Source: a virus
DNA: 33,857 bases
Strand: one strand, 5' to 3'
IMG/VR virus record: IMGVR_UViG_3300032238_000418
Coordinates: 1-33,857 of that record
Position 1 is the first letter of the stretch; each line of letters begins with the position of its first letter. The notes under the pieces are model-generated. The model ran no database searches and had not been told where the DNA came from. It saw only the letters and a list, made by a program, of their open reading frames with translations. This document shows positions 543 through 25,705 of this stretch, in pieces. The translations under genes and the position numbers were made by a program.

Positions 543-581
543 GCACTTTGCTAGAAATATTTTCAATTATTTGCGTAGGTG

Positions 582-610
582 TTTACCCTATGCCCTGAGC
601 AATCTATCAA
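582..610 (+). promoter_or_regulatory. Weak candidate rightward promoter
   Basis: TTTACC (582-587) and TATCAA (605-610) are separated by 17 bp and each match the consensus at 4 of 6 positions. They lie 20-48 bp before the start of the rightward operon, which needs a promoter here, but the match itself is poor. Confidence 0.25.
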
Positions 611-629
611 TGTGCTAGAGTTCGGGGCC

Positions 630-848
630 ATGAACACACCTATAACCCCAGACGAGCGCCGACAACTGGCAGAAAAAGTCGGCATAAACGAGCAATACCT
701 TTACCAATGCCTCACCGGCAGGCGGGAGATGTCAGCTTGGGAGGCTGTTCGCGTAGAACAGCAGACCGAGGGGCGGGTCACCCGGAAGATGGTCTGTCAG
801 GGTAGCTGGCAATCCATTTGGCCTGAGTTGGTGGAGGCCAAGGCATGA
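630..848 (+). CDS. Cro/YdaS-like helix-turn-helix regulator
   Basis: This 72-residue protein (start ATG 630, preceded by GGGG) has the pattern of the YdaS/Cro-like phage family: an N-terminal helix-turn-helix (RRQLAEKVGINEQYLYQCLT, residues about 9-28), then the GR...M..W.AVR.E..T.GRVTR segment and the C-terminal IWPELVE tail typical of these proteins. Such proteins act as Cro-type repressors at a divergent early control region. It is the first gene of the rightward replication operon and its stop overlaps the next start by 4 bp (ATGA at 845). Repeated TGCTAG half-sites upstream are candidate targets. No cI-like partner gene is present in the window. Confidence 0.82.
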   Translation: MNTPITPDERRQLAEKVGINEQYLYQCLTGRREMSAWEAVRVEQQTEGRVTRKMVCQGSWQSIWPELVEAKA

Positions 849-2872
849 CATCACTTTCAAACATTTTCCCCAACGGATTCGCTGCCGCGATGGAGAGCAA
901 AGACCTGGTAAACCCAGAGGAGGGGTTCCGGCGTCATTGCGAAGCGGCAGGGTTGCTGATCAAGGACATCATTCCCGACGGCGAAATTCACCGGGTGCCG
1001 CACATCTCCAGCAAGAAGGGCGCGCTTGATGGGTGGTACATCTTGCACACCAGCGGCAAAGTGCCCGTGGGCATTGCGGGGTGCTGGAAAGAACCAGTAT
1101 TCGAGAGCAAGTGGGTGGCAGACACCGGCAGAACCATGTCGTTCACCGAAAGGTTTGAACACGACAAATGGTTGGCCGAAGTCAGGGCCAAAAAAGAAGC
1201 TGACCGGCTTGCATCTCAAGCAGTCGCCGCAGAGCGTGCCGAGGATGAGGTTGGCACCTATGCTGATGCGAGTGACGACCATCCGTACCTGGTGCGTAAG
1301 CACGTTAGCGCGCATGGCATCAAGATTGATCGGGCGGGGCGGCTAGTCGTGCCAGTCATTGACCAGTCGGGCGAAATCCTGTCCTACCAAACCATTGATG
1401 CTGACGGCAACAAGCGATTCCTGAAGGGCGGGAAAATCGAGGGCGGGTTCTTTGAACTGCGTGGCAATCGCAAAATTGTTTTCATTGGCGAGGGCTTTGC
1501 CACTTGCGCATCTATCCATGAGGCCACCGGTTACACGGTGTTGGTGGCGTTTGATTGTGGCAACCTAGCCAAGGTGGCCAAGAGCGCCAAAGAGATGTTC
1601 CCCGGCTCCAAGATCATCATTGGGGCGGATAATGATCAGTTCACCGAGGGCAACCCCGGCGTGACCAAGGGCCGTGCGGCGGCGGCTCTGGTCTTCGGCG
1701 AAATCGTTTACCCACAATTCGGCGACTCGGACATGGTGGACAACAAACCAACGGACTTCAACGACTTGCATTGCCTGCAAGGTCTGGACGCCGTGAAAGA
1801 ACAGATCGAGCGCGTGGCCGGCCCCTTGCGGGACAAGTTGGCCTTCGAGTTCTCGCGCATCGATAGCCTGCAACTGAGCCAGATCAACTGGATTGTTGAC
1901 GACTACATTGAGAGTGACTCCCTCGCCCAAGTCTTTGGCGATCCAGGCGGTGGTAAGTCATTCGTCAGTATCGACATTGCCTGTTGTGTGGCCACCGGCC
2001 AATCATGGCATGGCCACGAGGTCAAGCAGGGTTCCGTGTTCTACATTGCCGGCGAGGGCCACAACGGCCTAGCACGGCGGTTCAAGGCGTGGGAACTGGG
2101 TAACGGTCAAACCCTGAACGGCGCGCCCCTGTACAAAAGCCACCGGGCAGCGCAACTGTACGACGCCACCGAGGCGGCGGTTGTGGCCGAATCCATCAAA
2201 GAGTTGTCCCAACAGGCCGGCACCGTGCCAAGCCTCATCATCATTGACACCCTAGCGCGTAACCATGGAGGTGACGAGAACAGCACCCAAGACATGAACG
2301 CGTTCATTCAGCACCTGGACACCTACCTGCGCCAACCATGGAAATGTTGCGTGCTAGTTGTCCACCACTCCGGCGTGGCCGACAAAGACCGCAGTCGCGG
2401 GTCAACGGCCCTGAAAGGCGCGCTGGATGCGGAATACCGTTGTCAGTTGGATTCCGGCACCAAAACCATTGCCTTTGAATCCAAGAAGATGAAGGACGCG
2501 GAAATGCCTGCGCCCAAAAACTTCCAGATCACTCAGGTTGACCTGCCCATCCAAGACAAGCACGGCAACGCGGTCAAGGGCGCTTACTTGGCGGCGGTGG
2601 ATGTTTCTGGATTGGTCAGCAACGTGCAAAAGAAAACCTATCTGTCTCCCAACCAACGAAAGGCCATGGAATGCCTAGTGCTACTTGAAACCAAGCGTTT
2701 GAAGGATCATCAAATTCACCCCATTACCGCAGAAGAATGGCGGGAATCCATGAAAGAACATGGCGTGGCACGCAACCGATTCTGGGATGCGGTCAAGGCA
2801 CTTATCAGCAAAAACATGGTCATTGAAATCAACGATTGTTACAAAAGCGCGAGCAAAGGTGATACAGAATGA
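845..2872 (+). CDS. Toprim primase / RepA-like replicative helicase
   Basis: A 675-residue two-domain replication protein. The N-terminal half carries a Toprim-type primase fold: the conserved glutamate motif FIGEGFATC near residue 213 and the acidic motif IIIGADND near 258-262. The C-terminal half is a RecA-like ATPase: Walker A GDPGGGKS near residue 365, Walker B LIIIDTLAR near 463, and a downstream VVHHSG motif near 500 with RGSTALKGALD following, as in RepA/DnaB-type AAA_25 helicases. It should unwind the fork and synthesise primers. It is joined to neighbours on both sides by 4-bp ATGA overlaps, showing translational coupling. No N-terminal zinc-finger cysteines are seen, so the primase is of the reduced type common in phages. 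Confidence 0.9.
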   Translation: MTSLSNIFPNGFAAAMESKDLVNPEEGFRRHCEAAGLLIKDIIPDGEIHRVPHISSKKGALDGWYILHTSGKVPVGIAGCWKEPVFESKWVADTGRTMSFTERFEHDKWLAEVRAKKEADRLASQAVAAERAEDEVGTYADASDDHPYLVRKHVSAHGIKIDRAGRLVVPVIDQSGEILSYQTIDADGNKRFLKGGKIEGGFFELRGNRKIVFIGEGFATCASIHEATGYTVLVAFDCGNLAKVAKSAKEMFPGSKIIIGADNDQFTEGNPGVTKGRAAAALVFGEIVYPQFGDSDMVDNKPTDFNDLHCLQGLDAVKEQIERVAGPLRDKLAFEFSRIDSLQLSQINWIVDDYIESDSLAQVFGDPGGGKSFVSIDIACCVATGQSWHGHEVKQGSVFYIAGEGHNGLARRFKAWELGNGQTLNGAPLYKSHRAAQLYDATEAAVVAESIKELSQQAGTVPSLIIIDTLARNHGGDENSTQDMNAFIQHLDTYLRQPWKCCVLVVHHSGVADKDRSRGSTALKGALDAEYRCQLDSGTKTIAFESKKMKDAEMPAPKNFQITQVDLPIQDKHGNAVKGAYLAAVDVSGLVSNVQKKTYLSPNQRKAMECLVLLETKRLKDHQIHPITAEEWRESMKEHGVARNRFWDAVKALISKNMVIEINDCYKSASKGDTE

Positions 2873-3432
2873 AAACCAACCCAACAGATGATTTGTTTCA
2901 ACAAAAAAACGCTTTTGAAATTAACGGCGTAAAAATCTTCGACTACCCGCAACCGATCACGAGTGCGGAAACGTGCAGGAATCAGAAAGCAGCCGGCGCT
3001 CGTTTCCTGACCGAAATCTTCGACATGCCAATGCGCGTACTGGATTTCGGCGGCGGTAAGTATTCGGAGGCGCAAGAATATTTGCGCTCCCTTGGCGCTG
3101 TGTGTGAGGTCTATGACCCATATAACCGTTCGCACGAAGAAAACATGAAGGCGTTGAGTCAGAAATATGATTTGATGATGTGCAACAACGTGCTTAACGT
3201 GCTGACTGACGACGTACTGCCAAACGTAATCTTGGACATGAAAAAGGTTGCCCAGATGTGCGGCGTCATAAAAATCATTGTCACCGTCTACGAGCGCGAT
3301 CGGTCTGGCCACGGCTGCTACACCGGCAACAACAGCTATCAGCGCAACGAAAAGACGGCTGACTACATCGACAAGTTGCGGTGCTTTTTAGCCATCTCAA
3401 AGCACAAAAAAGCATTGTTGGTGCATGTATGA
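2869..3432 (+). CDS. Class I SAM-dependent methyltransferase-like protein
   Basis: The 187-residue protein has a recognisable class I methyltransferase core: motif I VLDFGGGKY (about residues 57-65) for SAM binding, an acidic end of strand 2 (VYDPY, near 81), and a motif IV-like strand MMCNNVLNVL near 104. A later QRNEKTADYI segment resembles the C-terminal signature of small phage/DNA-associated methyltransferases. The target is not deducible: no DPPY/NPPY catalytic motif of adenine methylases is visible. Its gene overlaps both the helicase and the PP-loop protein by 4 bp, so the three are probably made together, which suggests an action on DNA, tRNA or nucleotides linked with the sulfur chemistry of the next gene. 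Confidence 0.75.
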   Translation: MKTNPTDDLFQQKNAFEINGVKIFDYPQPITSAETCRNQKAAGARFLTEIFDMPMRVLDFGGGKYSEAQEYLRSLGAVCEVYDPYNRSHEENMKALSQKYDLMMCNNVLNVLTDDVLPNVILDMKKVAQMCGVIKIIVTVYERDRSGHGCYTGNNSYQRNEKTADYIDKLRCFLAISKHKKALLVHV

Positions 3433-4223
3433 ATCCATTCGCCATCAACGAACCAACGTGCATCAGTTTTTCAGGGGGGCGGACAAGCGCCTATATGCTT
3501 TATCGGGTGTTGGAGGCTCACGGGATGAGACTGCCAGACCAGGCGATTGTCTGCTTCGCCAACACCGGCAAAGAAGAAGAAGCCACCCTGAAGTTCGTTC
3601 ACGACTGCGAGACAAACTGGAACGTGAAAATCCATTGGCTGGAATTCCAGGCAGAACAGCCAAAATATAAGACCGTTGACTTCGCCTCTGCCGCGAGAAA
3701 AGGCGAACCGTTTACAGAACTGATTTTGAAAAAGAACTACCTGCCAAACCCCGTGGCAAGGTTTTGCACCGAAGAACTGAAGGTCAAAACCATTGACCGG
3801 CACATCCAAAGCCTGGGCATTGAAGACATCACCACCATGGTCGGGGTGCGGGCAGATGAACCCAGGCGGTTGCCCAAACTGCGTGGCAGGGGGCTGAAGG
3901 TGCCACTCGCCGATGCCGGCGTCGTCCAACACGACGTACAAACATTCTGGCAATCCCAGCCATTTGACCTCGGCCTGACTTTCCGAAATGGTGTCACCGC
4001 GCTGGGGAACTGCGACCTGTGTTTCCTGAAAGGGCCTGAACAGATCATGGGTCTGGTGAAAGATAAGCCAAGCCGTGCGCAATGGTGGGCAGACCAAGAA
4101 AAAGCCATTGGGGCCACATTCAGAAGCGACAGGCCCAGCTATTTCAGCATGATGCAGTACATCAATCAGCAGGCAGATATGTTCAACTCAGATGGGACGA
4201 TCAGTTGTTTTTGCGGAGATTAA
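3429..4223 (+). CDS. PAPS-reductase/DndC-like PP-loop family protein
   Basis: Start chosen at ATG 3429, which overlaps the methyltransferase stop (ATGA). The 264-residue product begins with the PP-loop motif SFSGGRTSAY (residues about 13-22), which binds ATP pyrophosphate in the phosphoadenosine phosphosulfate reductase, DndC and TtcA families. A second family motif RFCTEELKVK lies near 111. Further cysteines form a CDLC pair (195, 198) and a C-terminal CFCGD (260, 262), consistent with metal or Fe-S binding. Phage members of this family are common but mostly uncharacterised; true PAPS reduction, DNA phosphorothioation or RNA thiolation are all possible. Its pairing with a methyltransferase argues for nucleic-acid modification, which is inference. 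Confidence 0.82.
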   Translation: MNPFAINEPTCISFSGGRTSAYMLYRVLEAHGMRLPDQAIVCFANTGKEEEATLKFVHDCETNWNVKIHWLEFQAEQPKYKTVDFASAARKGEPFTELILKKNYLPNPVARFCTEELKVKTIDRHIQSLGIEDITTMVGVRADEPRRLPKLRGRGLKVPLADAGVVQHDVQTFWQSQPFDLGLTFRNGVTALGNCDLCFLKGPEQIMGLVKDKPSRAQWWADQEKAIGATFRSDRPSYFSMMQYINQQADMFNSDGTISCFCGD

Positions 4224-4243
4224 CGCTCGGAAGCGTCCGGATT

Positions 4244-4260
4244 TGCCTAAAAAATAGGCA
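4244..4260. repeat. Short inverted repeat after the PP-loop gene
   Basis: TGCCTA and TAGGCA form a perfect 6-bp stem with an A5 loop, 21 bp after the PP-loop stop codon. No T-tract follows on the plus strand, so it is at best a weak terminator or an RNA 3' hairpin. Confidence 0.35.
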
Positions 4261-4412
4261 GAAAAGCGTCCGGAAGCGTCCGGATTGTGGCGAAAACGGA
4301 CGGTTCCGGACGGACGGACGTCCGGATTCATGCGTCCGGATCGTCCGGAAGCGTCCGGATTCGTCCGGATTTAAGGGGTCGCGACATCGATTTATGCGTC
4401 CGTCCGTCCGGA

Positions 4413-4430
4413 TTGGGTATATATACCCAA
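4413..4430. repeat. Perfect 18-bp palindrome
   Basis: TTGGGTATATATACCCAA is its own reverse complement, with an alternating TATATATA centre. It lies between the last two TCCGGA copies (ending 4412 and starting 4450). It could be a dimeric protein site or an easily melted cruciform element within the putative origin/regulatory region. Confidence 0.7.
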
Positions 4431-4499
4431 CCGTACCGGACGCTAAATGTCCGGACGGACGGTCAGGACGGACGTGGGAAAGGGGATCAGGGGGAATTG

Positions 4500-4847
4500 A
4501 TGATTGAAGTTGAACTGGACATGAAGATTGTTAGCGTGGCCAACATGCGGTTGCATTGGGCAGCAAAGGCACGGTTGACCAAGAGTCAGCGGGAAAGGGC
4601 TAGGAAGGCTTTGGAGGCCGTGGCGAGGTTTGGGGGTATGGATGCCTTGCCGGCAACCGTTGTGCTTACTAGGGTGGCTCCAAGGCGCTTGGATGGGGAT
4701 AACCTGCAGTCGGGGTTCAAGGCGGTCAGGGACGGGGTGGCTGATTGGCTTGGTGTGGATGATGGGGACAGCCGGATTGATTGGCAGTACAAACAGCGTT
4801 CCGCCGGGCCGAAGGTGTACAGGGTTGAAATCGAGGTGATAACATGA
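4500..4847 (+). CDS. RusA-like Holliday junction endonuclease
   Basis: Start set at ATG 4500 (MIEVELDMKI), 4 bases after a GGGGG Shine-Dalgarno-like run; upstream in-frame codons only translate the repeat array. The 115-residue length equals E. coli RusA (about 120). The hallmark acidic pattern is present: RRLDGDNLQSGFKAVRDGV with D65 and D67, and a third cluster GVDDGDSRID with D87/D88, matching the RusA aspartates (70, 72, 91) in spacing. The enzyme would resolve four-way junctions arising from recombination-dependent replication before packaging. Its stop overlaps the next start by 4 bp (ATGA, 4844). Confidence 0.8.
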   Translation: MIEVELDMKIVSVANMRLHWAAKARLTKSQRERARKALEAVARFGGMDALPATVVLTRVAPRRLDGDNLQSGFKAVRDGVADWLGVDDGDSRIDWQYKQRSAGPKVYRVEIEVIT

Positions 4848-5005
4848 CCGCGTGCGGGAATGTTGCAGTTGCCGCATTTTTGCCGGGGGCTGTTAAGTCA
4901 GCCGTCGAGGATGTCGATGCCAACGGTTTTCTGGCTTTCTCGTTGGCCATGTCAAAGACCGAATCGAAGCCCCCGCGTTTTTTGGAGGAGTTTACAAGTG
5001 TCTGA
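4844..5005 (+). CDS. Small 53-residue hypothetical protein between rusA-like gene and terminase
   Basis: A short frame reads MTACGNVAVA..., ending EEFTSV. Its ATG overlaps the RusA-like stop by 4 bp and its end overlaps the GTG start of the terminase small subunit by 8 bp, and the terminase Shine-Dalgarno lies inside it. This coupling is the main evidence that it is translated. The N-terminal third is mildly hydrophobic (VAVAAFLPGAV), the rest polar; there is no recognisable domain. Function unknown; it may serve mainly to couple translation. Confidence 0.65.
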   Translation: MTACGNVAVAAFLPGAVKSAVEDVDANGFLAFSLAMSKTESKPPRFLEEFTSV

Positions 5006-5525
5006 AAACTTGGATGTTCGGCCTGTGGCTGTAAAAAAGATTGGTCGCCCGGTTGTCTTCGGTATCGACAACCCCTGTTGGCAAGTCATGTGCGAACAGA
5101 TTTCGGAAGGCAAAAGCCTTAGCAGCGTCATCCGAACCGAACCCAACATGCCGTCGTATTACACCGTCATGTTGATGCTACGAAATAGCCCAGAGTTTCG
5201 GGCAATGTACGAAAAGGCCATCGAAAACCGAGCCGACCGCCTAGCAGAAGAAATCTTGGAGTTGGCGGACGAAGAAATGCCAGCGCATTTAGAAGGCCCA
5301 ATGGCCTCAGCCTGGGTTCAGCAGAAACGGATGCAGGTGGACGCTAGAAAATGGGTCGCTGCCAAACTCAAGCCAAAAGTCTATGGCGACAGAATCGACG
5401 TTGCCGTGACAGATACCCGCATTAGCGTCATGGATGCGCTCAAAGAGGCAAAGCAACGCGTGCTAAACGACGAAAGCAACATTGTGGATGTTGAGGTAAA
5501 GCCTGCGGCAGATATGCAAAATTGA
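4998..5525 (+). CDS. Terminase small subunit
   Basis: The start is the GTG at 4998, placed by an excellent Shine-Dalgarno GGAGGAG at 4984-4990 with a 7-base gap. The 175-residue product follows the small-terminase pattern: an N-terminal segment with a helix-turn-helix (EGKSLSSVIRTEPNMPSYYT), then NSPEFRAMYEKAIENRADRL, EEILELADE, and the highly typical RMQVDARKWVAAKLKPKVYG motif near residues 112-131. It recognises the packaging site on the phage DNA and regulates the large subunit. Unusually, the large subunit is not next: a 342-bp non-coding segment and a 533-codon gene intervene. Confidence 0.87.
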   Translation: MSENLDVRPVAVKKIGRPVVFGIDNPCWQVMCEQISEGKSLSSVIRTEPNMPSYYTVMLMLRNSPEFRAMYEKAIENRADRLAEEILELADEEMPAHLEGPMASAWVQQKRMQVDARKWVAAKLKPKVYGDRIDVAVTDTRISVMDALKEAKQRVLNDESNIVDVEVKPAADMQN

Positions 5526-5867: not shown

Positions 5868-7469
5868 ATGCCCATCGACAACGCCCTAACCCCTGAAGGC
5901 CAAAACGCGCTGGGTGCGGCGTTTGGGTACTATCCGCACCTACGGCGCAACCGCACGGTGCAAGACCCCCAGGCGGCGTTGGACATGCCGGTGCAATTCC
6001 TGCGTGGGCGGTTGGCCACAACTGCCGGAACGCCTTCGGATGTGTTAAATGCTTTGCGCTCACCGATGCCGATGGAGGCGTTTGGTGATGTGGACTATGG
6101 CCCACAGACGCAGGTGCCGTATGGGACGCAAGACTTACTTCAGCGATTGCCATTGGCACCGCAGGGGCCGGCCCAGCAGGCGGCAGCGAACCTTGGGTCG
6201 GCGGTTCCGTTGACGCCGATGGAGGCGTTGCAGGCGGCAAGACTAGCAAGGCAGGCGGCGTTAGCTGGAAAAAATTTGCCTGTTGGTTTGTCGATCAAGG
6301 CTGAAGGCGGAATGGATTTCTTGAAGCCTGGTGTGGCTCCGCAAGAGCAGGCTTTGCGTCTGGCGCAACAACGTGCCGCACAAGTTGGTCAATCTGCTGA
6401 TCCGGCGAATAGGATGTTGGAGCAGGGGTTTGAACCTGGTTGGTATCACGGCACAACCGGCGATATAACAAAATTCAGAACTGATTTGCTTGGTGAGGCT
6501 ACTGGTGCGGAAAGTGCCAAAAAAGGTTTCTTTTTTGCGCGTGATCCGCAAAACCCGCCGGCGTCGATGCTGACTAAAACTAATGATCCAAAATCAATTG
6601 AAATGTTGAAAAAACTTGGAATTCCTGAAGAGGAGATTGCCAAGTTGAATACGGTGTCAATGCAGGGCCATGGTGCTGAAACTGCGTCTGGATATGCTCA
6701 GATTGGTGGGGCGCGAGAATATAAAGAGGCAATGAGAAAAGCCAAGGCTGCTGAAAAGCGTGGCAATTGGGATGAGTATGAAAAGCAAATGCAGATTGCT
6801 GAAGATTCGTCGATAAAGCAATCAAATTATGTTCAGGGTTTGGTTGCAAAATATGGTGATGCTAGAGATGAAATGCTGAATTCAATTCAGAATTCTTTGT
6901 ATAACAAGACGTTGCCTCAAGCAGAAGCTGAAGCGTTAGATGCAAAGGTAAAGCAATTGATGCCTTATGGTTGGTATAACAGTTATAGCCAACCTCAACT
7001 AGAGGGGTTGAAAAAAGAAATTGTCAAAATTGTTGGCGCTGAAGCCGCCGCGCCGGCGCTTAAACAGATTGACAAATTTAAGTCGGTCAAAGCCGAAAGG
7101 GCATTGGCTGAGAATACGCAAGAAGGCGGAAATGTGATGCCGATTGCGTTGCGGTATAAAAATCCGATGGTGCATGATTTTGGTGGCAACACATATAGGG
7201 ATCAAACATATTCTGATTTGGTAGATCAGGCTTTGCGTGGTGGCCATGATGCGTTGATTTTGAAGAACACTTTTGACCCTGGCGCTGGCCCTAGCAAACT
7301 CATTGATGTTGGTGTTGTGTTTAGTCCTGACCAAATTCGTTCTCGATTTGCTGCTTTTGATCCGTTAAGAAAAACTGCTGCAACTGCCGCAGCCGCAGGT
7401 TTAGCCGCGCCTGACCTGTTGGCCAAAGAGCAACAAAAGCCGCGCAATCAATTGCGCCCAACTCGCTAA
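5868..7469 (+). CDS. ADP-ribosyltransferase (ART-PolyVal-type) protein
   Basis: A 533-residue protein. The first about 130 residues are Pro/Ala/Leu-rich (ALDMPVQFLRGRL, LQRLPLAPQG) and resemble the N-termini of phage virion or polyvalent proteins. From about residue 190 an ADP-ribosyltransferase fold is suggested by GWYHGTTGDITKF, then GFFFARDP, and near the C-terminus NPMVHDFGG, GGHDALILKN, VGVVFSPDQIRSRF, the layout of the ART domain of polyvalent proteins. Such enzymes transfer ADP-ribose from NAD to host targets and may be injected with the DNA. The ATG at 5868 has no Shine-Dalgarno, which is odd. Sample 60-bp lines differ strongly in G+C (38/60 at 6121-6180 versus 20/60 at 6841-6900), suggesting the catalytic part was acquired separately. 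The stop overlaps the terminase start by one base (TAATG). Confidence 0.72.
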   Translation: MPIDNALTPEGQNALGAAFGYYPHLRRNRTVQDPQAALDMPVQFLRGRLATTAGTPSDVLNALRSPMPMEAFGDVDYGPQTQVPYGTQDLLQRLPLAPQGPAQQAAANLGSAVPLTPMEALQAARLARQAALAGKNLPVGLSIKAEGGMDFLKPGVAPQEQALRLAQQRAAQVGQSADPANRMLEQGFEPGWYHGTTGDITKFRTDLLGEATGAESAKKGFFFARDPQNPPASMLTKTNDPKSIEMLKKLGIPEEEIAKLNTVSMQGHGAETASGYAQIGGAREYKEAMRKAKAAEKRGNWDEYEKQMQIAEDSSIKQSNYVQGLVAKYGDARDEMLNSIQNSLYNKTLPQAEAEALDAKVKQLMPYGWYNSYSQPQLEGLKKEIVKIVGAEAAAPALKQIDKFKSVKAERALAENTQEGGNVMPIALRYKNPMVHDFGGNTYRDQTYSDLVDQALRGGHDALILKNTFDPGAGPSKLIDVGVVFSPDQIRSRFAAFDPLRKTAATAAAAGLAAPDLLAKEQQKPRNQLRPTR

Positions 7470-9557: not shown

Positions 9558-11741
9558 ATGCCTCAAGACTACACCGGCATTGCCGCCGCTGGCGCTGTCG
9601 CCGAGGGCGGAAAGCCCAAGAAAAGCGCCTCCGATATTTTGGCGACTGCCCGTGCGCGGCTGGATTTGGCTGTGTCGGCTTTGTCTGAGAGCCGCGAGGA
9701 TGAGATTGACGACCTGCGCTTTTACGCTGGTTCGCCTGACAACCAATGGCAATGGCCGGCTGACGTGTTGGCTACCCGTGGTGCGGTGCAAGGGCAGACG
9801 ATCAATGCCCGCCCTTGTTTGACGATCAACAAGTTGCCCCAGCATGTGCGGCAGGTCACAAACGATCAGCGTCAGAACCGCCCTGGTGCGAAGGTTATCC
9901 CTGTGGATGACAACGCTGACGTGGAAGTGGCCGATGTTTTTAACGGCATGATCCGGCACATTGAGTACATCAGCGACGCCGATGTGGCCTATGACACCGC
10001 TTGCGAGAATCAGGTTGCCTATGGCGAAGGGTATATCCGCCTGCTGACCGAGTATTGCGACGACGCGACGTTCGATCAGGACATCAAGATTGGCCGCATC
10101 CGCAACTCTTTCAGCGTTTACATGGATCCGCTGATCCAAGACCCGACTGGTGCTGATGCCAAGTGGTGTTTTGTGACGGAGGACATTCCGAAGGCCGAGT
10201 TTGAACGGATGTACCCAGACGCCGCGCCGATCACGACTTTGCAGTCGCTGGGTGTGGGTGATCAGTCGATCAGTAACTGGCTGAACGAGGACACGATCCG
10301 CATTGCCGACTACTATTACATCGACTATGACCGGGCGACGCTGAACCTGTACCCTGGCAATATGACCGCGTTTGCCGGCACGCCGGAAGACAAGCAGTTG
10401 CGCGCCATTTACGGCAAGCCCAAGCGTAGCCGCGAATCAGACCGCCCCAAGGTCAAGTATTGCAAGATCAACGGCTACGAAATTCTGGAAGAGCACGAGT
10501 GGGCCGGTAAGTGGATTCCGATTGTCCGCATTGTGGGCAACGAGTTTGAGGTCGATGGCCGGCTGTACGTCAGCGGCTTAGTGCGCAACGCCAAAGACGC
10601 CCAGCGCATGTACAACTACTGGGTGAGCCAAGAAGCTGAGATGCTGGCCTTGGCCCCGAAAGCGCCGTTCATTGGCTATGGCGGTCAGTTTGAAGGTTAC
10701 GAAGATAAGTGGAAGACGGCCAACACCAATAACTGGCCGTATCTGGAAGTCAACCCCGATGTGACCGACGGCCAAGGCGCGGTTTTGCCGCTGCCGGCCC
10801 GCGCACAGCCTCCCATGGCGTCGAGTGGTCTGTTGCAGGCCAAGGCCGGTTCGGCGGAGGACATCAAGGCGACCACCGGGCAATATAACGCGTCGCTGGG
10901 CATGGGTTCCAATGAGCGTTCAGGCCGTGCGATTTTGGCCCGTCAACGCGAGGGTGATGTTGGGACTTACCATTATGGTGACAACTTGGCCCGTGGCGTG
11001 CGCCACATTGCCCGCCAATTGGTGGACTTGATCCCGAAAATCTACGATACCCAGAGGATTGCCCGCATTATTGGCGAAGACGGCGAAACGAAGATGGTCA
11101 AGATCAACCCTGATCAGCCGGAGCCAGTCAACCGCATTGTGGACGAGCGCGGCGTTGTGATTGAGAAGATTTACAACCCTGGTGTGGGCAAGTATGACGT
11201 GGTGGCCATCACCGGCCCTGGTTATGCGACCAAACGTCAGGAGGCGCTGGAAGCCATGGCTCAACTGTTGCAGGGCAACCCGCAACTGTGGGCGGTGGCT
11301 GGTGACCTGTTCGTCAAGAACATGGATTGGCCGGGTGCGCAAGAGATGTCCAAGCGTTTTGCCAAGACGATTGACCCCAAGATTTTGGCGGAAGACGACA
11401 AGTCGCCTGAATTGCAGGCCGCTGAACAGCAGATTCAGGCCATGGGCGCTGAAATGGATCAAATGCACAGCATGTTGCAAAATGTCAGCAAGTCGATTGA
11501 GGTTCAGGAACAGGAGCGCAAGGACTTTGAGGCGCAGGTCAAGGCTTACGAAGCTGAAACCAAGCGCCTAGCCGCCGTGCAGGCATCCATGTCGCCGGAA
11601 CAGATTCAAGACATTGTTTTGGGCACCGTCCATGGCATGATTACGTCCGGCGACCTGATTGGCGAGATGCCTGGTCGGGAGCAGGTGGAGATGATGCCAG
11701 AATCCGCAGAATACGCACCCCAACAAGGAATTCCGCAATGA
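9558..11741 (+). CDS. Portal protein (P22 type)
   Basis: A 727-residue protein, matching the P22 gp1 length (725). The N-terminal region shows the family pattern: SREDEIDDLRFYAG, then ARPCLTINKLPQHVRQVTND and QVAYGEGYIR, followed by SVYMDPLIQDPTGADAKW. The central part includes TGQYNASLGMGSNERSGRAI, typical of the portal wing/clip. Residues about 617-680 are a predicted coiled coil (AAEQQIQAMGAEMDQ..., QEQERKDFEAQ), comparable to the P22 barrel helix. Twelve copies would form the channel for DNA entry and exit at one capsid vertex and the platform for the tail accessory factors. The stop overlaps the next start (ATGA, 11738). Confidence 0.95.
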   Translation: MPQDYTGIAAAGAVAEGGKPKKSASDILATARARLDLAVSALSESREDEIDDLRFYAGSPDNQWQWPADVLATRGAVQGQTINARPCLTINKLPQHVRQVTNDQRQNRPGAKVIPVDDNADVEVADVFNGMIRHIEYISDADVAYDTACENQVAYGEGYIRLLTEYCDDATFDQDIKIGRIRNSFSVYMDPLIQDPTGADAKWCFVTEDIPKAEFERMYPDAAPITTLQSLGVGDQSISNWLNEDTIRIADYYYIDYDRATLNLYPGNMTAFAGTPEDKQLRAIYGKPKRSRESDRPKVKYCKINGYEILEEHEWAGKWIPIVRIVGNEFEVDGRLYVSGLVRNAKDAQRMYNYWVSQEAEMLALAPKAPFIGYGGQFEGYEDKWKTANTNNWPYLEVNPDVTDGQGAVLPLPARAQPPMASSGLLQAKAGSAEDIKATTGQYNASLGMGSNERSGRAILARQREGDVGTYHYGDNLARGVRHIARQLVDLIPKIYDTQRIARIIGEDGETKMVKINPDQPEPVNRIVDERGVVIEKIYNPGVGKYDVVAITGPGYATKRQEALEAMAQLLQGNPQLWAVAGDLFVKNMDWPGAQEMSKRFAKTIDPKILAEDDKSPELQAAEQQIQAMGAEMDQMHSMLQNVSKSIEVQEQERKDFEAQVKAYEAETKRLAAVQASMSPEQIQDIVLGTVHGMITSGDLIGEMPGREQVEMMPESAEYAPQQGIPQ

Positions 11742-12103
11742 GTAAAGCCGCCGATTTCGTAGGCATACTGTTTTTGGCTCGTGATGTGGCCCATTCGGTT
11801 CACCTGAACACGCGCAGTTTCAGTAAGCACAGCGCCCTGAACATTTTCTATGACCGCATCATTGATGTGGCCGACGACTTTGCCGAAACCTATCAGGGTA
11901 CGCATGGACTGATTGGCCCGATTACGCTACAGTCTGCCAAGAAGACGGCAAACATCATTGAGTTTTTGGAAGACTCACTCGCTGAAGTGCAAAAGATGCG
12001 CTACGAGGTTTGTCCGAAAGAGGACACCTGTTTGCAGCAACTCATCGACAACATTGTCGAAGTTTATCGGCGCACTTTGTATAAACTCAAATTTTTGGCA
12101 TAA
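11738..12103 (+). CDS. DUF5856-like helical protein (Dps/ferritin-like fold suspected)
   Basis: The 121-residue, largely helical protein has the pattern LARDVAHSVHLNTRSFSKHS, IIDVADDFAETYQG, LEDSLAEVQ, which I associate with the phage DUF5856 family. Histidine and acidic residues spaced on the first two helices (H17, H20, H28; E/D on helix 2) recall the diiron site of Dps-like proteins, but metal binding is unproven. The gene starts inside the portal stop (ATGA) with AAGGA 8 bases upstream. Presence between portal and head decoration genes suggests a virion or head-assembly link. Confidence 0.7.
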   Translation: MSKAADFVGILFLARDVAHSVHLNTRSFSKHSALNIFYDRIIDVADDFAETYQGTHGLIGPITLQSAKKTANIIEFLEDSLAEVQKMRYEVCPKEDTCLQQLIDNIVEVYRRTLYKLKFLA

Positions 12104-24223: not shown

Positions 24224-25705
24224 ATGGCACTTGATCCGAATATTGCTCTTGGCATTCGGCCAATGGAAGTCGCCAACCCGTTGGCGCAATACGCGCAAAT
24301 TGCGCAACTGCAAAATTATCAGAACCAAGATGCGTTGGCGCAGTATCAACTAGGTGCGGCTCAACGCACCGAGGCACGCGACATTGCCCGCATGAATGCG
24401 CTAGCGCAGGCCGGCACGGATGAAACGGCGATTGGCAACGCGCTACTTAAGTCGGGCGACATCAAAGGTTATTCCGATTTTGTAAAAGCAACGCGTGAAG
24501 GTCAAAAAGCCTTGATTGACATGCAAGACATCAAGCTAAAACAGTCGCGTGGCTTTTTGGATAATCTTGATCCAAGCAATCCCAACGCGCCTGCTCAGTA
24601 TCTTGCATGGGCCGAGGCCAATCACAACGATCCAATCTTGGGGCCGTTGTTTGCAAAACGCGGCCTGTCTATAGATCAAACTCGTGAACGCGTTGCAAAC
24701 GCCGTCAAAATGGGGCCGCAAGCGTTTTCAGATTTGGTCAATCAGTCCAAACTTGGTGCTGACAGATTTATTGAACTTAACAAACCAAGCGTCACCCCCC
24801 AAGACACCGGCGCTGGTGGCCGTTTGATTTCCCGTCCAGGTCTTGGCGGCGCTGCAACTGTTGTGCCGGGTAGTGAGTTCACCAAAACCGAAACCTTTGC
24901 AGACAAAAATGCAAAAGCTCGTTTGGCATTCGACCAAGCCAAGTTTGCATGGGAAAAGGCAAACCCAGGCTACGAACTTAAAGAAGATGCCGACGGCAAT
25001 TTTTACGGTATCAACAAGCAAACCCTGCAAGCAGTACCTGTCACGATTGGTGGCGCGGCGGTTGCACCTGCTCCTGCGGCTCCTGCCGCTGGCGGCGGTA
25101 TCCCCGGCGCTCGTATGCCTGCTCCGGATGGTGCGCCTGTGGCACCTGCGGCACCTGCGGAGGGCGCACCGCCCAAACAGTTGACCGGCAAAGGTACTGC
25201 AATGACAGAAGGTCAAAGCAAGTCCGCCATGTTTGGCGGTGCCATGAACCAAGCAAACAACATCATTACCAAGGTAGAAAAAGAAGGAACAACAACTGCT
25301 CCAGTTGCTGTTTCGGTGTTGCAAGGTCTTGCCAGGTTAAGCCCTCAATTGCTTGGTTCTGGTGAAAATGCCGCAAGTTCTATTGAAGCATTGTTCAGGC
25401 AAGACCCGACATCTATTTTGGGGCCAAATGTTAATCAACAGAAGTTGGGTCAGGCGCAGGTTGCGTTTGCAACAGCTTACTTGCGTGCAACATCAGGTGC
25501 TTCGTTTGGGCCAAGTGAAGTTGCAAACACAATCAAAGAATTTTTCCCTTTGATTGGAGAAGACCAATCTGTTGTGCGACAAAAAGCAGAAGCTAGAAAA
25601 CGCGCAATTGAAGGCATGAAAATTTCAACGACCAAACAAGGTCAAAGTTACATTGAAAAATCTGGCGGCAATGAAAACGATCCATTAGGACTTGGAGTCA
25701 GATAA
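24224..25705 (+). CDS. DNA ejection/internal virion protein 2
   Basis: The 493-residue protein has a helical Gln/Ala-rich N-terminal region (VANPLAQYAQIAQLQNYQNQ), a flexible Ala/Pro/Gly linker near residues 275-320 (APAPAAPAAGGGIPG), and a C-terminal helical domain with LRATSGASFGPSEVANTIKE and FFPLIGEDQSVVRQKAEARK. This arrangement resembles P22 gp20-type or other podovirus ejection proteins. It lies between two further ejection-type genes and starts with AAGGA upstream. Precise equivalence to a P22 protein is inferred from order, not sequence identity. Confidence 0.7.
   Translation: MALDPNIALGIRPMEVANPLAQYAQIAQLQNYQNQDALAQYQLGAAQRTEARDIARMNALAQAGTDETAIGNALLKSGDIKGYSDFVKATREGQKALIDMQDIKLKQSRGFLDNLDPSNPNAPAQYLAWAEANHNDPILGPLFAKRGLSIDQTRERVANAVKMGPQAFSDLVNQSKLGADRFIELNKPSVTPQDTGAGGRLISRPGLGGAATVVPGSEFTKTETFADKNAKARLAFDQAKFAWEKANPGYELKEDADGNFYGINKQTLQAVPVTIGGAAVAPAPAAPAAGGGIPGARMPAPDGAPVAPAAPAEGAPPKQLTGKGTAMTEGQSKSAMFGGAMNQANNIITKVEKEGTTTAPVAVSVLQGLARLSPQLLGSGENAASSIEALFRQDPTSILGPNVNQQKLGQAQVAFATAYLRATSGASFGPSEVANTIKEFFPLIGEDQSVVRQKAEARKRAIEGMKISTTKQGQSYIEKSGGNENDPLGLGVR

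Follow-up and report, generated by a model that had tools for sequence, protein, structure and literature searches.

The DNA analysed here, a stretch of 33,857 nucleotides referred to as the window, is an IMG/VR contig of a virus, and the phage is P22-like in its head genes. The genes were ordered YdaS-like, primase-helicase, Methyltransf_23, PAPS-reductase-like, repeat array, RusA, TerS, and portal. A YdaS/Cro-like regulator (579..848, + strand) is followed by the primase-helicase (845..2872, +), the proposed origin-binding initiator, which combines a Toprim domain with a helicase domain matching Pfam AAA_25 (E 1e-37; RepA/DnaB-like); the SF3 helicase model had no match in this protein in the Pfam scan. 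Two cargo genes come next, encoding a Methyltransf_23-like protein (2869..3432, +) and a PAPS-reductase-domain protein (phrog_424; 3381..4223, +). Beyond the array lie a RusA-like resolvase (4500..4847, +), an Sf6-type TerS, and a P22-type portal (9558-11741). The longest open frame of TerS spans 4860-5525, with the start probably at ~4998 (GTG), because many relatives match only from there. A large ORF between the terminase genes (5868-7469) matched ART-PolyVal weakly (E 1e-4, short of Pfam's cutoff), and a phrog_858 (starvation-inducible regulator)/DUF5856 protein is encoded at 11738-12103 in the head-gene block, beside the portal gene.

No credible gene was found between the PAPS-reductase-like gene and RusA, in line with an earlier note on this DNA that had called the gap non-coding. 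The note had also reported 11 TCCGGA palindromes in one small block, and this was confirmed: 4236-4455 holds 11 copies, and the rest of the 33.9 kb window holds one (position 25123). In the comparison with shuffled controls that the note had proposed, no 223-b stretch had more than 2 copies in any of 100 dinucleotide shuffles of the window, and the 276-b gap shuffled on its own gave a mean of 0.39 and a maximum of 3. TCCGGA and CGTCCG were the two most clustered hexamers of the window, and successive TCCGGA copies in the array were separated by 33, 10, 26, 16, 14, 9, 10, 10, 43, and 43 b. The clustering thus stood, but the palindromic unit did not. The true unit is directional, CGTCCGGA; its end is TCCGGA, hence the palindromic look, and the relatives show that this palindromicity is incidental. 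Likewise, the CGGACGG stretches described as extra half-sites are present, but are reversed iterons rather than half-sites.

With (G)CGTCCGGA(TT) as the unit, the iteron array (4234..4474, no strand assigned) comprises 11 forward CGTCCG (starting at 4234, 4267, 4277, 4319, 4333, 4342, 4352, 4362, 4397, 4401, and 4405) and 8 reverse CGGACG (4297, 4307, 4311, 4315, 4437, 4452, 4456, and 4469), commonly spaced 9-10 b apart and occurring nowhere else in the window. Between the converging iterons, flanked by the last forward iteron and the right-hand reverse iterons, lies a perfect palindrome missed by the earlier note, TTGGGTATATATACCCAA (4413..4430, no strand assigned), which is a candidate strand-opening site. 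A repeat search returned 21-b inverted arms (4401-4421/4422-4442) meeting at 4421/4422. When an AT-rich melting element was sought beside the iterons, only the short TATATATA core inside this palindrome, itself of conserved position, was found. The locus has one general feature of an iteron-type origin, a cluster of short directional repeats near the gene of a putative replication initiator. GC skew over the window gave no clear origin signal.

Iteron arrays in related phages

An array was present 3' of the primase-helicase gene in 127 viral loci encoding 82 distinct primase-helicases; the loci came from overlapping searches and were partly de-duplicated, so these are counts of loci and not of events. 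The arrays were located at the primase-helicase gene, immediately 3' of it, or farther 3' with one or two cargo genes in between, and their iterons fell into six types: CGTCCGGA, ATCCGGA, CATCCGAA, ACCGAA, GTACCGAA, and GCACCGAA. Arrays of the TCCGGA type occupied the same locus in L133/L134/L247, L167/L170/L172/L244-L246, L173, and L148, and the palindrome was the same as in the window in L133/L134, L167/L170/L172, L173, and L148. Nearly all TerS relatives with enough upstream sequence had an array at this position, in most cases 500-800 b ahead of TerS; none was seen in L145, L153, and L207. Most TerS relatives had other iterons (GTACCGAA, ACCGAA(ACTT), CATCCGAA, or GCACCGAA), and searches with the primase added ATCCGGA. 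The expectation that related phages would keep an array at this locus despite sequence change was thus borne out, the position being kept and the iteron type replaced. Absence of the repeats from close relatives, which the earlier note had set against its own proposal, was seen for the hexamer, as the closest relatives (L128 and L243) lack TCCGGA, but not for the array, since both have a different one at the same place.

The anatomy of the array was largely shared between types. A spacing of 10 b was dominant in GTAC, AACC, and CATC arrays and the commonest in CGTC arrays, and in most types the iterons were forward on the left of the palindrome, with reverse copies enriched on the right. The palindrome occurred in several versions, including GGGTATATATACCC, GTGTCTATAGACAC, and GTGCTTATAAGCAC, and changes in one arm were matched in the other. 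Because several versions with matched arms exist within one iteron type, the dyad symmetry itself seems to be kept. In part of the GTAC arrays no clear palindrome was detected by script. A methylation-target array was also considered and dropped, because the TCCGGA hexamer itself is not conserved between relatives.

A scan of the collection for two CGTCCGGA within 30 b returned mostly unrelated GC-rich sequence, with L067 and L124 as the only true relatives, and a DNA search in cultured phages gave nothing relevant. A different repeat array was seen in one unrelated contig (L065, 2748-3040), where 11 TCCGGA fall within 250 b and the units include TCCGGAAACCCGGATGGTCC.

The layout extends to distant primase-helicases with ~31-35% identity to that of the window. 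Those of the cultured Alteromonas phages XX1924 and PB15, Idiomarinaceae phage 1N2-2, and Salicola phage CGphi29 all have arrays of other iterons directly behind the gene, and the 1N2-2 array has a perfect 20-b palindrome inside. Most of their uncultured relatives showed the same layout and added further iteron sequences, those of the cultured and uncultured phages together including GGTTCA, GGTACA, GGGACA, CGTAAC, GGAACA, and more; L332, L338, L341, and L351 of this distant clade had no clear array. In 14 loci of the 1N2-2 clade, a single hexamer was repeated 6-11 times per 300 b, where controls had a mean of 3.2 and a 95th percentile of 4. Near-minimal pairs were also seen: L321 differs from L323/L330/L350 at three or four positions in the last 110 residues, with a G to S change in the presumed recognition helix, and several GGTACA iterons are CGTACA at matching places.

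Iteron type and the primase-helicase C-terminus

Residues 1-595 of the primase-helicase were 82-94% identical to the window across relatives, whatever the iteron type. Residues 596-668, by contrast, reached 77-80% identity solely among phages sharing the iterons of the window, and fell to 57% in CATC and 40-47% in GTAC, ACCGAA, and GCAC phages. Indeed, many GTAC and ACCGAA phages (92-94%) resembled the window more closely in the core than did the other CGTC phages (87-88%). The divergence was sharpest in pairs with different iterons: window versus L243 (core 99.2% and C-terminus 44% identical), L247 (CGTC) versus L195 (GTAC; 98.3% and 36%), and L264 versus L284 (ACCGAA versus GTACCGAA; 99.8% and 42%). 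Iteron type and putative recognition helix matched one to one in the 127 loci without exception, the motifs being GVARNRFWD for CGTCC, [GN]V[KA]NNRFWE for CATCC, GIANNRLWE for ATCCGG, GIKSNRFRE for ACCGAA, GLDYRRFKE for GCACC, and G[LM]N[ASP]RRF[KA]E for GTACC. Seventy-one more loci, on contigs partly overlapping the first set, gave no exception either.

Gene trees of 43 phages gave the same result. The C-terminal tree required 5 changes of iteron type, the minimum for six types, while the trees of the core (13-14), YdaS (14), RusA (14), and TerS (15) required many more, against ~21 for shuffled labels. In AU tests, a single clade of CGTC phages was rejected for core, RusA, TerS, and YdaS (p 8e-52 to 8e-4), whereas the C-terminal tree recovered such a clade. 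The tree changes and AU tests thus disfavour the YdaS-like protein and TerS as readers of the array, and RusA did not track iteron type either. Moreover, a phage with different iterons shares 97% identity in the YdaS/Cro-like protein, which the earlier note had put forward as a binder. As judged from sequence comparison, iteron type tracks only the predicted C-terminal winged-helix domain of the primase-helicase.

Comparison of the window with L243/L128 at the DNA level delimited the exchanged block. Identity was 94-95% up to 2680, inside the C-terminal domain, no homology was found over 2681-4497, and identity returned to 92-97% from 4498 on, two bases before the RusA start. These breakpoints indicate that the C-terminal domain, cargo genes, and array move as one block, an exchangeable cassette (2681..4497, +). 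The cargo in the slot between primase and array (window 2869-4223; L243 7843-9071; L244 8025-8696; L138 4644-5327) varies, being Methyltransf_23, PAPS-reductase-like, an N6/N4 DNA methylase, or a Vut_1-type transporter accompanied by an unknown protein. It does not follow iteron type: the PAPS protein of L247 (CGTC), encoded between C-terminus and array, was 65-71% identical to those of four GTAC phages and 58% to that of the window (CGTC), and L244 (CGTC) and L138 (GCAC) had DNA methylases 61% identical in the same slot. Because the cargo in between is exchanged independently, linkage alone is insufficient to explain why C-terminal domain and array stay matched. Although the contigs are metagenomic, the recurrence of the same swaps across many samples makes chimeric assembly an unlikely sole explanation.

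The proposed iteron reader, a C-terminal winged-helix domain (residues 601-670; 2645..2854, +), was assigned by AlphaFold2, Foldseek, and co-variation. In the full-length AlphaFold2 model, residues 601-670 had pLDDT 81-86, while the rest was poor and the helicase core of low confidence; modelled alone, the C-terminal domain had a mean pLDDT of 84.7. The predicted elements were helices 602-620, 629-638, and 643-655 and strands 659-662 and 665-668. Winged-helix domains made up most of the Foldseek matches, and many of these bind DNA (Zur with DNA, Fur, the MCM C-terminus); all matches were weak, with a best E of 0.03, and a profile search of the C-terminus or the whole primase against solved structures found nothing significant. 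The type-specific residues 642-644 and 647 fall at the start of the third predicted helix, the putative recognition helix (residues 643-655; 2771..2809, +), and the type motif GVARNRFWD covers residues 640-648. Read off after the fact from six types, base -2 before CCG appeared to correspond to residue 643 (R with G, N with A, A/S/P with T, Y with C), base -3 to residue 644 (R with G), and base -1 to residue 647 (W with T, K/R/A with A); the ACCGAA type was mixed at -2 and -3.

Functions considered for the array

The earlier note had left open whether an initiator or a regulator binds the array, as a lytic origin, an operator, or a partition site. The conserved position and the co-variation with the C-terminus strongly favour the origin, and the other two lost ground. 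An operator or late-promoter control region for the YdaS/Cro-like protein or another regulator would suit an array placed where early (replication) genes give way to late (packaging) ones on the same strand, with YdaS-like genes preceding the primase gene. However, YdaS was 97% identical to the window in L139 (GTAC) and 83% in L134 (CGTC), and its tree required 14 changes. A promoter scan found no sigma-70-like promoter in the array, the iterons are confined to the array within the window, and in many relatives the array begins inside the 3' end of the primase gene, making control by such a regulator improbable. Packaging was weighed too, since TerS is encoded ~0.5 kb downstream, belongs to the Sf6-type family, and the small terminases of some phages read pac sites through HTH motifs. 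That the array is a pac site bound by TerS is nevertheless very improbable: TerS was 96% identical between the window and L128 despite different iterons, its tree needed 15 type changes with groupings by type rejected, and in the Alteromonas and Idiomarina phages the array remains beside the primase gene, where the annotated neighbours include no terminase gene.

A cluster of repeats close to replication genes could also serve partition (a parS-like site) or segregation, but no integrase, ParA, or ParB was present among the proteins scanned, no integrated relative was found in 84,980 bacterial and archaeal genomes, and a lytic phage needs no partition, so that we give this function almost no weight. 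A neutral expansion or selfish repeat without function is brought to mind by the CGGACGGACGG stretches, which resemble slippage products. It is scarcely credible for repeats that keep their position, orientation, spacing, and palindrome while their sequence is exchanged as one set, in every case together with the matching C-terminal domain.

A proposed origin read by its own primase-helicase

We consider it highly probable (roughly 85%) that the array is the lytic replication origin of a P22-like podovirus, bound by the winged helix at the C-terminus of the primase-helicase and swapped as a specificity cassette. In the proposed mechanism, the primase-helicase (Toprim + AAA_25) would bind the CGTCCGGA iterons through this winged helix, and several copies would assemble on the iterons converging on TTGGGTATATATACCCAA. 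The DNA would then open at the palindrome, and the same primase-helicase would unwind and prime to initiate replication. Related phages would trade winged helix and array as a matched pair, and origin specificity would thereby switch with the enzymatic core unchanged. The same protein on the same array may also have an autoregulatory or late-promoter role.

The working principle, a helicase C-terminus reading downstream iterons, is already known. The C-terminal domain of P4 alpha binds iterons, and its helicase is of the SF3 type, in contrast to AAA_25 in the window. Like the window protein, P4 alpha has a Toprim-type primase and a helicase in one polypeptide (PMC4234260, PMC7145576). As Ubeda et al. 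2007 is summarised in PMC7581432, SaPI Rep is an initiator helicase that reads short iterons directly downstream of its own gene through its C-terminal domain, and the isolated C-terminal domain of SCCmec Cch2 binds the putative ori (PMC7581432). The window shares with these both a C-terminal DNA-binding domain on the helicase, by prediction, and iterons downstream of its gene, by sequence. It differs in that SaPI Rep and Cch2 are of another family with a separate primase, whereas the podoviral protein is a Toprim + AAA_25 fusion whose C-terminus and iterons are swapped as a cassette between near-identical phages. The window system works like the SaPI Rep/P4 alpha class, yet is not a member of it.

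Other known systems also bear comparison. Lambda O, P22 gp18, and phage L gp18 are initiators with iterons of their own, and replication modules are exchanged whole between P22-like phages (PMC8022706). However, these initiators are not primase-helicases and have the iterons within their own genes, whereas the window array is 3' of and outside the primase-helicase gene and only the C-terminal domain is exchanged. No O-like initiator with internal iterons was found here, the adjacent initiator candidate being the primase-helicase. ORF904 of the archaeal plasmid pRN1 comes from a repressor and primase-helicase operon, has a C-terminal winged helix, and has its origin directly downstream (PMC4234260), but pRN1 has no iterons, using a large stem-loop instead, and its primase is archaeo-eukaryotic and its helicase of the SF3 type. 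In RSF1010, iterons, helicase, and primase act together at the origin (PMC4234260), but RepA, RepB', and RepC are three separate proteins and RepC binds the iterons. In the open literature searched, we came across no account of these phages as a group, of their arrays, or of exchange of the cassette.

The arrays predict where replication would begin in several cultured marine phages and across a widespread family of uncultured aquatic phages, with origin specificity exchanged between close relatives. They also provide, on a near-constant enzyme, an extensive natural set of initiators paired with their origins, so that origin reading by a helicase becomes testable by swapping ~75 residues and ~250 bp. 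More tentatively, co-circulating phages might be under selection to switch origin specificity, trading the cassette like a compatibility type, with the six or more types forming a natural recognition code. If so, switching would perhaps let a phage evade relatives in the same cell, satellites, or defences that exploit or obstruct the origin.
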